This document shows positions 24,541-42,771 of a stretch of DNA of 64,000 nt, piece by piece. The stretch lies in NCBI RefSeq assembly GCF_021731785.1, contig NZ_JAKFWS010000016.1, positions 62,001 through 126,000 of the forward strand, in the 5' to 3' direction. A program made the translations under genes and the position numbers. The stretch's first letter is position 1, and the number at the start of each line of letters is the position of its first letter. The notes beneath the pieces are model-generated. The model was not told where the DNA came from, ran no database searches, and saw nothing but the letters and a program-made list of their open reading frames with translations. The DNA is from Methylocystis sp. (lineage in GTDB: Bacteria; Pseudomonadota; Alphaproteobacteria; Rhizobiales; Beijerinckiaceae).

Positions 24541-27366
24541 ATGAGCGCGGCGTCACTGTCGGGTGACGACCTCAACGCGGCAGTTCTTCAGATCGTGCGC
24601 GAGCTTGTTGTTGAACTGCATCCAAACCTGATAGATCCGCGCCTCGTGCGGCTTGACAGCGATCTCGATCGCGATTTGGCGCTCGACAGTCTGTCGCGGG
24701 CGGAACTGCTCTTGCGGCTGAATCGTAAATTCAAGGCGCAGCTTCCGGAACGGCTGATCGGCGAGGCCGATCGCCCATGCGATCTCGTAGACGCCCTTCT
24801 CGCCTCAGGTTTGGATATCCCTCAAAGCGCGGCTATTCCGCGAACTGCGCCTCCAACGCTTGAGTCGGTGGAGGAGCCGATCGAGGCGAGCACCTTGATT
24901 GAGGCGCTCATCGCGCATGCGGAGCATCATGGCGACCGTGCGCATGTGTTGCTCTGGCGCAGCGAGGGCTCCCCGGAACCGCTCTCCTACCGGGAACTCT
25001 ATCACGACGCGCGCAAAGCCGCGGGCGGCCTGATTGAACGCAGCGTTCGACCGGGGGGGCGGGTTGCGATCATGCTGCCGACGGGCCGTGACTTCTTCGT
25101 CGCATTTTTCGCCGTTCTATTCGCCGGCGCGATTCCAGTGCCGATCTATCCGCCGTTTCGACTGTCGCAGATTGAGGATCACCTGCGTCGCCAGGCCGGT
25201 ATCTTGGCGAACGCCGAGGCGAGCGCGCTCATCACCAGCGCCGACATACGGATCGTCGGCAATTTGCTGTTTGGTTTGGTTGGCGCGTTGCAGGACATCA
25301 TGACGGTCCCGGACCTCGCCAAAGCGGAAGCCTTGCCGGCGCCTTTGCCGGCGACGGCGGATACGACGGCTCTCATCCAATATACGTCGGGCAGCACGGG
25401 CGACCCCAAGGGAGTCGTGCTGTCTCACGGCAATCTTCTCGCCAATATTCGCGCCATGGGTTCGGCGTTGAAGGCCTCGTCCGCGGACAGGGTCGTCAGC
25501 TGGCTGCCGCTCTATCACGACATGGGCCTGATCGGCTGTTGGCTGGGCGGCCTCTATTATGGGGCGCCGGTCCTGATCATGTCGCCGCTGTCGTTTCTTG
25601 CCGATCCCGCGCGCTGGCTCTGGGCGATCTGCGAGCATAAGGCGACGATTTCGGCGGCTCCTAATTTTGCATATGAGTTCTGCCTCAAATCGATCAGCAA
25701 CACGAGGATCGCGGGCCTCGATCTTTCATCACTGCGCGCGATCCTGAATGGCGCCGAGCCCGTCAGCCCGATATCGATCACGCGCTTTGCTGAAAGATTC
25801 GCGCCTTATGGGTTTCAGTCGCAGATGATGACGCCGGTCTATGGTCTCGCAGAAAACGCGGTCGGCCTCGCCTTTCCGCCGCTCGGTAGAGGGCCTCTCA
25901 TTGATCGCGTCGATCGACGCGCGCTGGATCGAGACGGCGCCGCGCGCATCGCGGTGGCGGAGGGTGCGGAAGTTGTCTCCTTGGTGGCGTGCGGGTGGCC
26001 GCTCCCGCGTCACGAAATTCGCGTCGTCGACGACGCAAGTCGCGAATTGCCCGAGCGCCGGGAGGGCCGCATTCAATTTCGGGGGCCATCGGCGACGCGG
26101 GGCTATTACCAAAATCCCGAAAAGACGCGCGCTCTGTTCGACGGCGATTGGCTGGAGACGGGCGATCGTGGCTATATCGCTGGCGGCGACGTCTTCATCA
26201 CCGGCCGCATCAAGGATTTGATTAAGCGCGCGGGACGCAACATCTATCCGCAAGAACTGGAAGAGACCGTCGGATCGATCGAAGGGGCGAGAAAAGGCTG
26301 CGTCGCGATTTTTCCAACGCTCGACGCGCGCGCCGGAACGGAACGGCTGATCGTCATGGCCGAGACGCGCCTGACCGATGAAACGCGCCGGGAAGCTTTA
26401 CGAAAATCGATTGTCGAGGCATCTCAAGCCTTGCTCGACTTCGCGCCGGACGAAGTCGTTCTCGTCCCGCCGCACTCGGTCCCAAAGACTTCAAGCGGAA
26501 AAATACGTCGATCCGCCGCCCGCGCGATGTTCGAGACCGGTCAATTGCACATCAAGAGCACAAGCCCGCGCTGGCAGCTCTTGCGCATTGCCCTGGCCGG
26601 CATTGGGCCTCGGCTGAGTCGCGCTTTGTCGAACCTAACGACCTTGGCCTTTGATGCTTACGCTTGGGTTGCGCTCGCCCTGATCGCTGTCTGCGTATGG
26701 CCGTGCGTGATATTGGTGCCAAAGCGGGCATGGCGCCATCACATCGTCAGCGCGGGCGCGCGCCTGTTTTTTCGCTTGATTGGGTGCCGGCTGACGGTCG
26801 AGCGCGAAGCGCCGCTGCCGCAAGATAACGCCATCATCGTCGCCAATCATTCCAGCTATCTCGACAGCGCTGTGCTGGTTGCGATTTGCCCTGGCGAAAT
26901 CTCCTTCATTGCGAAGGAGGAGCTTGCGCATCAAATCGTCGCGGGACCCTTCTTGCGCCGCTTGGGCGCGATTTTCGTTCGCCGTTCCGACCCGGCCGGC
27001 GGCGTGGCCGACGCTGGGGCGGCCCTTGAATCGGCGCATGCCGGCGTTCGGCTGATTTGGTTCCCGGAGGGAACCTTTTCGCGGATGCCAGGACTATTGG
27101 AGTTCCATATCGGCGCCTTCTCGATCGCCGCGCAATTGGGGCTTCCTGTCGTTCCGATCACAATTTGCGGCACACGTTCGATTCTGCGCAGCGGCTCATG
27201 GCTGTTCCGGCGCGGCGCCATCACCGTGCATATCGGCGCGCCGATCAGGCCTGCAGGCGAAGATTTTGAAGCCGCGGTCGCGTTGCGTGATGCGACGCGA
27301 GAAAAGATATTGGAGCGTTGCGGCGAACCAGACCTCGGTCATGAGCGCGTGGCGCTGCCCACATGA
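24541..27366 (+). CDS. Trifunctional ACP / acyl-AMP ligase / acyltransferase
   Basis: About 941 residues from ATG 24541 (a GTG 21 codons earlier is possible). Domains in order: an acyl-carrier domain (about 8-85) with the phosphopantetheine serine in LALDSLSRAEL; an AMP-dependent ligase of the fatty-acyl-AMP-ligase group (about 115-660; YTSGSTGDPKG, SWLPLYHDMGLIG, LETGDRGYI, KTSSGKIRR); a hydrophobic segment (AYAWVALALIAVCVWPCVIL); and a PlsC-like acyltransferase (about 750-900) with NHSSYLD and FPEGTFSR. It could activate a fatty acid, load it on its own ACP and transfer it to a lyso-lipid at the membrane. This fits acyl-chain remodelling, but the substrate is unknown. First gene of the block. 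Confidence 0.88.
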   Translation: MSAASLSGDDLNAAVLQIVRELVVELHPNLIDPRLVRLDSDLDRDLALDSLSRAELLLRLNRKFKAQLPERLIGEADRPCDLVDALLASGLDIPQSAAIPRTAPPTLESVEEPIEASTLIEALIAHAEHHGDRAHVLLWRSEGSPEPLSYRELYHDARKAAGGLIERSVRPGGRVAIMLPTGRDFFVAFFAVLFAGAIPVPIYPPFRLSQIEDHLRRQAGILANAEASALITSADIRIVGNLLFGLVGALQDIMTVPDLAKAEALPAPLPATADTTALIQYTSGSTGDPKGVVLSHGNLLANIRAMGSALKASSADRVVSWLPLYHDMGLIGCWLGGLYYGAPVLIMSPLSFLADPARWLWAICEHKATISAAPNFAYEFCLKSISNTRIAGLDLSSLRAILNGAEPVSPISITRFAERFAPYGFQSQMMTPVYGLAENAVGLAFPPLGRGPLIDRVDRRALDRDGAARIAVAEGAEVVSLVACGWPLPRHEIRVVDDASRELPERREGRIQFRGPSATRGYYQNPEKTRALFDGDWLETGDRGYIAGGDVFITGRIKDLIKRAGRNIYPQELEETVGSIEGARKGCVAIFPTLDARAGTERLIVMAETRLTDETRREALRKSIVEASQALLDFAPDEVVLVPPHSVPKTSSGKIRRSAARAMFETGQLHIKSTSPRWQLLRIALAGIGPRLSRALSNLTTLAFDAYAWVALALIAVCVWPCVILVPKRAWRHHIVSAGARLFFRLIGCRLTVEREAPLPQDNAIIVANHSSYLDSAVLVAICPGEISFIAKEELAHQIVAGPFLRRLGAIFVRRSDPAGGVADAGAALESAHAGVRLIWFPEGTFSRMPGLLEFHIGAFSIAAQLGLPVVPITICGTRSILRSGSWLFRRGAITVHIGAPIRPAGEDFEAAVALRDATREKILERCGEPDLGHERVALPT

Positions 27367-42771: not shown

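Follow-up and report, generated by a model that had tools for sequence, protein, structure and literature searches.

An operon joining acetate–CoA ligase, a second pyruvate dehydrogenase-type E1/E2 pair and an acyl carrier protein recurs in distant bacteria and may form two-carbon acyl thioesters under low oxygen or stress

The window analyzed here, 64,000 nucleotides of the 4.2-Mb genome of the alphaproteobacterium Methylocystis sp. (genome G000; contig NZ_JAKFWS010000016.1, positions 62,001 to 126,000), contains at its positions 31009–36212 a core operon of five genes that encode, in order, an AMP-forming acetate–coenzyme A (CoA) ligase (Acs), the E1α and E1β subunits and the E2 acyltransferase of a pyruvate dehydrogenase (PDH)-type complex, and a stand-alone acyl carrier protein (ACP). 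We assign a probability of roughly one half to the reading that this core is a portable five-gene operon that makes two-carbon (C2) acyl thioesters under oxygen shortage or once growth ceases. Every junction within it is a 4-bp overlap (4/4); the junctions read ATGA, GTGA, ATGA and ATGA, as an earlier note made from the letters of this DNA had stated. That note had also considered the translational coupling of E1 and E2 to ACP and Acs unusual, and the coupling proved to be conserved far beyond this genome.

Relatives of the operon were sought through its ACP in 61 genomes around the genus, in 385 of the class, in annotated plasmids, and in a named genome collection from which the best 80 of at least 570 confirmed matches (at least 595 pattern matches) were taken. 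From the 133 loci obtained, 10 duplicates, one locus without a recognised ACP (L207) and 33 loci that were too short upstream were dropped, leaving 89 that extend 5 kb or more upstream from the ACP, among which no further duplicates were found and some are close relatives. The exact order Acs-E1α-E1β-E2-ACP is present in 81 of these 89 loci; the loci were selected by their ACP, so that its presence follows from the search, but the remaining order does not. The earlier note had allowed for the genes lying scattered in relatives, and for the core this is not what we found. The eight exceptions comprise six broken or partial copies (L043, L050, L051, L052, L109 and L118) and two loci, L104 and L105, that are described below. 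Even among the 33 loci with a short upstream region, 31 have E2 beside the ACP. Strong ACP matches in the class sample (E ≤ 2.6e-10, window excluded) were found in 16 genomes with E2 and in two with Acs only. The taxa represented include Alpha-, Beta-, Gamma- and Deltaproteobacteria, Acidobacteria, Rokubacteria, Planctomycetes, Nitrospirae and Nitriliruptoraceae, many of them as metagenome bins of the named collection. Plasmids of Streptomyces, Embleya and Rhodococcus carry all five genes, and a Photobacterium plasmid carries at least the E2-ACP pair.

When the plasmids were searched with E2 (best 60 of 427 records examined), the ACP directly followed E2 in 29/29 matches of at least 41.8% identity, two of these ACPs being weak matches (29% and 32%; Streptomyces sp. 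BHT-5-2 and Embleya). The next full-length match, at 36.5%, is an orphan E2 of Sinorhizobium sojae without a recognised ACP, and most of those after it (≤34%) carry the name of a dihydrolipoamide acyltransferase, PDH-type or other. The remaining 31 listed records gave no match to the operon ACP, a weak negative, as the plasmid ACP search also missed four operon records (three actinobacterial, one from Sulfitobacter). The split E2 of Leisingera aquaemixtae R2C4 was not among the best 60 of the 427. The five proteins have correlated pairwise distances across 67 loci (r 0.62–0.86; 0/500 permutations as high), which fits joint inheritance, but shared ancestry by itself inflates such correlations.

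In L104 and L105 (at about 9.4–11.4 kb), Acs is followed directly by the same kind of ACP, and no E1 or E2 match was found in the fetched 19 kb. The ACP thus pairs with Acs too, which suggests that Acs can serve the ACP as well. An MBOAT O-acyltransferase and an ADP-forming ligase–GNAT fusion lie nearby in both loci and a LuxC-type acyl-CoA reductase in L105 only; MBOAT was discarded as a general partner, since the other loci searched for it gave no match. The broken copies L043 and L051, on two contigs of one genome (G023), have lost the same internal part, which begins in the middle of Acs and runs through the end of E2, and retain part of the ACP. The locus without a recognised ACP, L207, contains the orphan S. 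sojae plasmid E2 (~9.0 kb, 36% identical) beside a universal stress protein and a gene for a fusion of fatty-acyl-AMP ligase (FAAL) and PlsC-type acyltransferase; no match to Acs, E1 or the operon ACP was found within its 19 kb.

Among the core proteins, Acs lies above the NCBIfam cut-off for acetate–CoA ligase (NF003313, 912.8 vs 729 bits), and E1α (TIGR03182, 439.5 vs 393.85 bits) and E1β (NF006667, 396.7 vs 321 bits) lie above those for PDH; the closest solved structure to E1α is that of mitochondrial PDH E1α (E 1.3e-73). The operon thus resembles a canonical alphaproteobacterial PDH in its E1 subunits and in an E2 with lipoyl, E3-binding and catalytic domains. It differs in that its E1β lacks a lipoyl domain (its alignment to the PRK11892 model, 464 positions long, starts at position 136), in having its own Acs and ACP and no E3, and in an E2 that falls far below the PDH E2 cut-off (TIGR01349, 208.9 vs 445 bits; the other listed E2 models were likewise not reached). 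An RxGGL motif is kept in 67/67 operon E2s and is missing from two E2s of the same genome in the alignment. The absence of E3 agrees with the earlier note, no E3 having been noticed among the genes of the surrounding block.

Over the 67 aligned loci, window included, Acs retains the motifs TxSGK (67/67) and WWQTE (64/67), which we take to be the catalytic lysine motif and the acetate-pocket tryptophan motif, respectively. The aligned operon E2s retain the active-site histidine (87/87), the active-site aspartate (84/87) and the lipoyl lysine (85/87, a count we prefer to motif counts of 48/67 in the first 70 residues and 64/67 in the first 150). The canonical Ser-Asn pair of E2s, presumably residues of the CoA site, is mostly Thr/Ser-Ser in the operon E2s; as the meaning of these residues is our assumption, we did not use them as proof that E2 uses the ACP. 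The ACP scores 28.4 bits with the Pfam PP-binding model (cut-off 20.8), and its DS motif is invariant (31/31 aligned).

Because a PDH-type E1β and E2 sit elsewhere in the genome (contig C15; E2 frame of 311 aa, 391.9 bits vs a cut-off of 445), the complex of the core operon is, judged by sequence, an additional, second PDH. Other contigs carry two E3 genes that exceed the TIGR01350 cut-off, and a succinyltransferase E2 above its cut-off is on contig C25. A third E2-like gene, on contig C53 (L192), has a threonine at the position of the active-site aspartate in the alignment.

Outside Methylocystis, the neighbours and upstream regions of the operon indicate that it often sits in stress or low-oxygen islands, a setting that the earlier note had missed. 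Annotated plasmid copies lie amid universal stress proteins, Hsp20, CBS, DUF2267, FtsH, Lon, PolX, ppsA, a PfkB-type kinase and nicotinate phosphoribosyltransferase, in varying mixes. After setting aside the 16 loci that gave query proteins, we compared 50 operon loci of at least 15 kb from outside the genus with 40 control stretches of 19 kb, taken at set positions in eight alphaproteobacterial genomes that carry the operon. Of 12 stress-type families drawn from the annotated plasmid islands, one or more were present in 20/50 operon loci vs 1/40 controls (p 1.2e-5), and at least two in 12/50 vs 0/40. Adding three more families gave 25/50 vs 1/40 (p 2.4e-7), a partly circular count because these families were picked for recurring beside the operon, and we prefer the 20/50. 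Outside Methylocystis, 28 of 68 loci have the pattern TTGA-N6-TCAA, which we take to be an FNR/FixK-type box, in the 300 bp ahead of acs; across 200 dinucleotide shuffles the number averaged 0.26 and reached at most 3, and the pattern is present in 4/420 upstream regions of control genes. In the window itself, candidate boxes were rejected: none lies upstream of acs, and the two pattern matches lie at 2448 and inside the gene for a FadD-type ligase.

The operon copies of Streptomyces and Rhodococcus resemble DevR/OsdR dormancy islands in lying amid universal stress proteins, Hsp20, nicotinate phosphoribosyltransferase, nitroreductase, a PfkB-type kinase, ppsA and a sensor kinase–regulator pair, although not all of these are found in each. 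Upstream of one Streptomyces plasmid operon is a perfect OsdR/DevR-like palindrome at −228 (0/100 shuffles), and a second Streptomyces plasmid copy has one with a single mismatch (reached by 5/100 shuffles). The OsdR regulon, as listed in the paper's main text, includes universal stress proteins, nitroreductase and pyruvate phosphate dikinase; in that main text the words 'acyl carrier' do not occur and pyruvate is mentioned only for the dikinase (PMC5069765). Unlike the actinobacterial islands, proteobacterial copies carry FNR-type boxes. As side observations, a thymidine/AMP phosphorylase-like gene, named by eye, recurs near the operon in Hydrogenophaga and relatives (L131, L168, L179 and L188), and genes resembling phosphoribosyl pyrophosphate synthetase, also named by eye, lie near some of these and other loci.

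In the mechanism we propose, E1α and E1β would decarboxylate pyruvate and, in a reductive step, acetylate the lipoyl arm of E2, and E2 would hand the acetyl group to the phosphopantetheine of its dedicated ACP, instead of or besides CoA. The lipoyl arm would be reoxidised by the E3 of the housekeeping complexes, and Acs would be a second inlet to the same pool, from acetate. Acetyl-ACP might then act, more speculatively, as a CoA-sparing C2 donor, for instance as a primer of lipid synthesis or a carbon store in low-oxygen survival. The transfer step is modelled on the enzymes Qnc, whose product we take to be quinocarcin, and SclQ1-4 of scleric acid. QncN, QncL and QncM were shown to direct both the formation of a C2-glycolicacyl unit and its attachment, and SclQ2, SclQ3, SclQ4 and SclQ1 are a thiamine diphosphate (ThDP) domain, a transketolase-type protein, a lipoyl-acyltransferase and an ACP, respectively, as these sets are described in PMC6335953. 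By that description the operon likewise joins PDH-like ThDP halves, a lipoyl E2 and a small ACP, and in Qnc and Scl the C2 acyl group ends on the ACP (PMC6335953). The same description has a ketose phosphate as the proposed source, a nonribosomal peptide synthetase setting and no Acs in the set described (PMC6335953), whereas the operon has an E1α that fits the pyruvate family, a near-invariant Acs and a setting in stress islands. By this analogy, acetyl transfer from E2 to the ACP is most likely, and the operon would most likely load acetyl from pyruvate onto the ACP with Acs as the second inlet. We also entertain, with clear reservations, a fuller version in which the operon is a low-oxygen survival module of distant phyla, on plasmids and chromosomes, where pyruvate and acetate feed the ACP and acetyl units are formed and consumed on the ACP instead of CoA; this would constitute a CoA-independent branch of primary metabolism, not an antibiotic pathway.

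Several observations weigh against C2 loading of the ACP under low oxygen. The domains and motifs of the operon E2 are those of ordinary CoA-using E2s, and genes can lie side by side and be inherited together without acting in one chemical step. The low-oxygen part rests on relatives because in Methylocystis the FNR-type box is found in 0/13 upstream regions (window included; one of the 13 belongs to a broken copy) and the operon seldom has stress genes nearby (Hsp20 in 1/18 loci, universal stress proteins in 1/18). Outside the genus, the box is missing in 40/68 loci and the 12 stress families in 30/50, and neither Embleya nor either of the two Rhodococcus loci has a convincing OsdR-like site. 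Some of the 68 upstream regions belong to close relatives, several with the same site, so that the effective number of loci with a box is smaller, and the stress controls all come from eight alphaproteobacterial genomes, whereas the operon loci come from several phyla.

The operon lies in an 18-kb block whose genes are collected in Table 1. On the + strand the order is ACP-FAAL-PlsC, FadD, PolX, Acs, E1α, E1β, E2, ACP and a ROK-family kinase; past ROK, an ATP-binding cassette (ABC) half-transporter on the − strand precedes GH3 and GH13 on the + strand. Pfam and NCBIfam scans found all the genes that the earlier note had named, and its list stands except that it omitted PolX between FadD and Acs. 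In the ACP-FAAL-PlsC protein (frame 24478–27366), Pfam places PP-binding at residues 57–104, AMP-binding at 147–544 and the PlsC-type acyltransferase at 772–896. The FadD-type protein scores below the cut-off of NF006523 (843.8 vs 884 bits). The split of PolX is a frameshift or a sequencing error; one relative, L111, has PolX as a single open frame.

Table 1 Genes of the block, with window positions and the basis of each assignment
Feature	Position	Strand	Basis
ACP-FAAL-PlsC fusion; facultative island neighbour	24541..27366	+	Pfam; longest frame from GTG 24478
FadD-type long-chain acyl-CoA ligase; neighbour	27422..29080	+	Pfam AMP-binding and C-domain
PolX in two frames (29123-30541, 30493-30837); neighbour	29123..30837	+	Frameshifted
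Acs, AMP-forming acetate–CoA ligase; first core gene	31009..32787	+	Pfam AMP-binding and C-domain; NCBIfam
E1α of the second PDH-type complex	32784..33770	+	TIGR03182, above cut-off
E1β	33767..34774	+	NF006667, above cut-off
E2, with one lipoyl, E3-binding and catalytic domain	34771..35949	+	Pfam, scanned from longer TTG start 34714
Stand-alone ACP, ATGA overlap with E2	35946..36212	+	Pfam PP-binding
ROK-family kinase; genus-specific neighbour	36228..37088	+	Pfam ROK
ABC half-transporter (ABC_membrane_2/SbmA/YddA-like) with ATPase; genus-specific neighbour	37074..38876	−	Pfam
GH3 beta-glucosidase-like; genus-specific neighbour	39025..41166	+	Pfam
GH13 alpha-amylase-family enzyme; genus-specific neighbour	41173..42771	+	

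Comparison with relatives indicates that the block is modular. A single pathway across the whole 18 kb was rejected because the core, the sugar genes and FAAL-FadD-PolX occur in different combinations, and the one metabolic block seen by the earlier note thus comes apart. In one relative, the 9.2 kb that run from the end of FAAL-PlsC to the ACP are 89% identical. Flanking genes identified in the window include dapE and a glcD-like gene, with 29 kb between the two. Where a relative carries both on a single contig, their distance ranges from about 30 kb (G007, in the other orientation) to more than 1 Mb, and no simple empty insertion site between them could be shown. Beyond the block, a gene for a Tlde1-domain protein (43552–44298) lies ahead of one for a SorA-type sulfite dehydrogenase (NF052245, 656 bits), which is followed by a small haem-binding-like protein, these two together spanning 44534–46055.

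Of the alternatives to C2 loading of the ACP, an ordinary second PDH that works with Acs to make acetyl-CoA at low oxygen (being, for example, less inhibited by NADH), with the ACP a separate co-regulated fatty-acid carrier, appears to us unlikely, if worth serious attention. The family scores of E1α, E1β and Acs, the normal PDH domains of E2 and the likeness of E1α to the mitochondrial subunit all suit it. The constancy of the ACP does not: the ACP follows this E2 clade in all 29 plasmid matches of at least 41.8% identity (best 60 of 427) and the full order recurs in 81/89 loci, to which the other 31 listed records, lacking a match to the operon ACP, add a weak point given the four operon records missed by the same search. 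The ACP could instead carry octanoate for lipoylation of its E2 partner, ensuring a modified E2 upon induction. LipB uses octanoyl-ACP, and the operon E2 both keeps its lipoyl lysine and is translationally coupled to the ACP; the housekeeping ACP is normally enough for lipoylation, however, and L104 and L105 keep Acs-ACP without an E2 match in the fetched stretch, so that we consider this improbable. We judge equally poor the prospects of a fermentative energy module, in which E1/E2 would turn pyruvate into an acetyl thioester and Acs, in reverse, would form acetate and ATP from AMP and pyrophosphate. AMP-forming Acs runs in reverse in Syntrophus, the pairing of Acs with E1/E2 is near-invariant, and PpsA and PfkB-type genes lie nearby in some islands; yet Acs normally runs towards acetyl-CoA, the Sulfitobacter island has its own phosphate acetyltransferase-like and acetate kinase genes, and the ACP is left unexplained.

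Both functions proposed by the earlier note involve the neighbours of the core, and as accounts of the operon we find both highly improbable. In one, the operon would act with GH3, GH13, ROK and the ABC transporter as a sugar-to-acetyl-CoA module on glucan. The 12.3 kb from the end of PolX to GH13 (30556–42839) are 90–91% identical in L034 and L036, so that core and sugar genes stay together in part of the genus. Counted over loci of at least 9 kb (18 from Methylocystis, 87 others), however, ROK lies beside the operon in 8/18 Methylocystis loci, ABC in 7/18, GH3 in 5/18 and GH13 in 4/18, several copies of the genus lacking them, and homologues of the four are found in 0/87 of the other loci at the threshold used. 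Their restriction to Methylocystis speaks against a sugar module as the operon's general role, as does the opposite strand of the ABC gene. Counts of FadD and FAAL-PlsC in this locus set were discarded, being inflated by cross-matches to Acs. In the other proposal, acetyl-ACP would prime a special lipid that FAAL-PlsC places in the membrane. FAAL-PlsC is present in the fetched stretch of 11/89 loci, directly upstream of the operon in Cupriavidus and beside acs in L098, and the co-occurrence that the note had suggested looking for appears as an enrichment in the class sample (full-length FAAL-PlsC in 3/16 operon genomes, window excluded, vs 12/368 genomes without the operon; p = 0.02). Against this proposal, 78/89 loci lack FAAL-PlsC in the fetched stretch, 13/16 class-sample operon genomes lack it at full length (two candidates scored per genome), and the fusion has an ACP domain of its own; fragments occur in four more class-sample genomes, none with the operon. 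By these counts FAAL-PlsC is often a neighbour in the island without being an obligate partner. The acyl transfer from E2 to the ACP on which this proposal builds is retained as our best reading, and its FAAL-PlsC step is not.

Literature searches found no description of the operon, judged by title and the start of the abstract among the matches listed. Its parts and the idea of E1-E2-ACP are already known. To judge by these searches, what is undescribed is that they are joined almost invariantly to Acs, that the set occurs in many phyla and that it sits in a stress or low-oxygen setting. Should acetyl-ACP be what the operon makes, a gene set now annotated piecemeal as acsA, pdhA, E2 and ACP would gain a testable function, and the low-oxygen regulators of Proteobacteria and actinobacteria would be tied to the same metabolic operon. 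Central carbon metabolism would then have a second C2 carrier, used under stress, across phyla and partly on plasmids.

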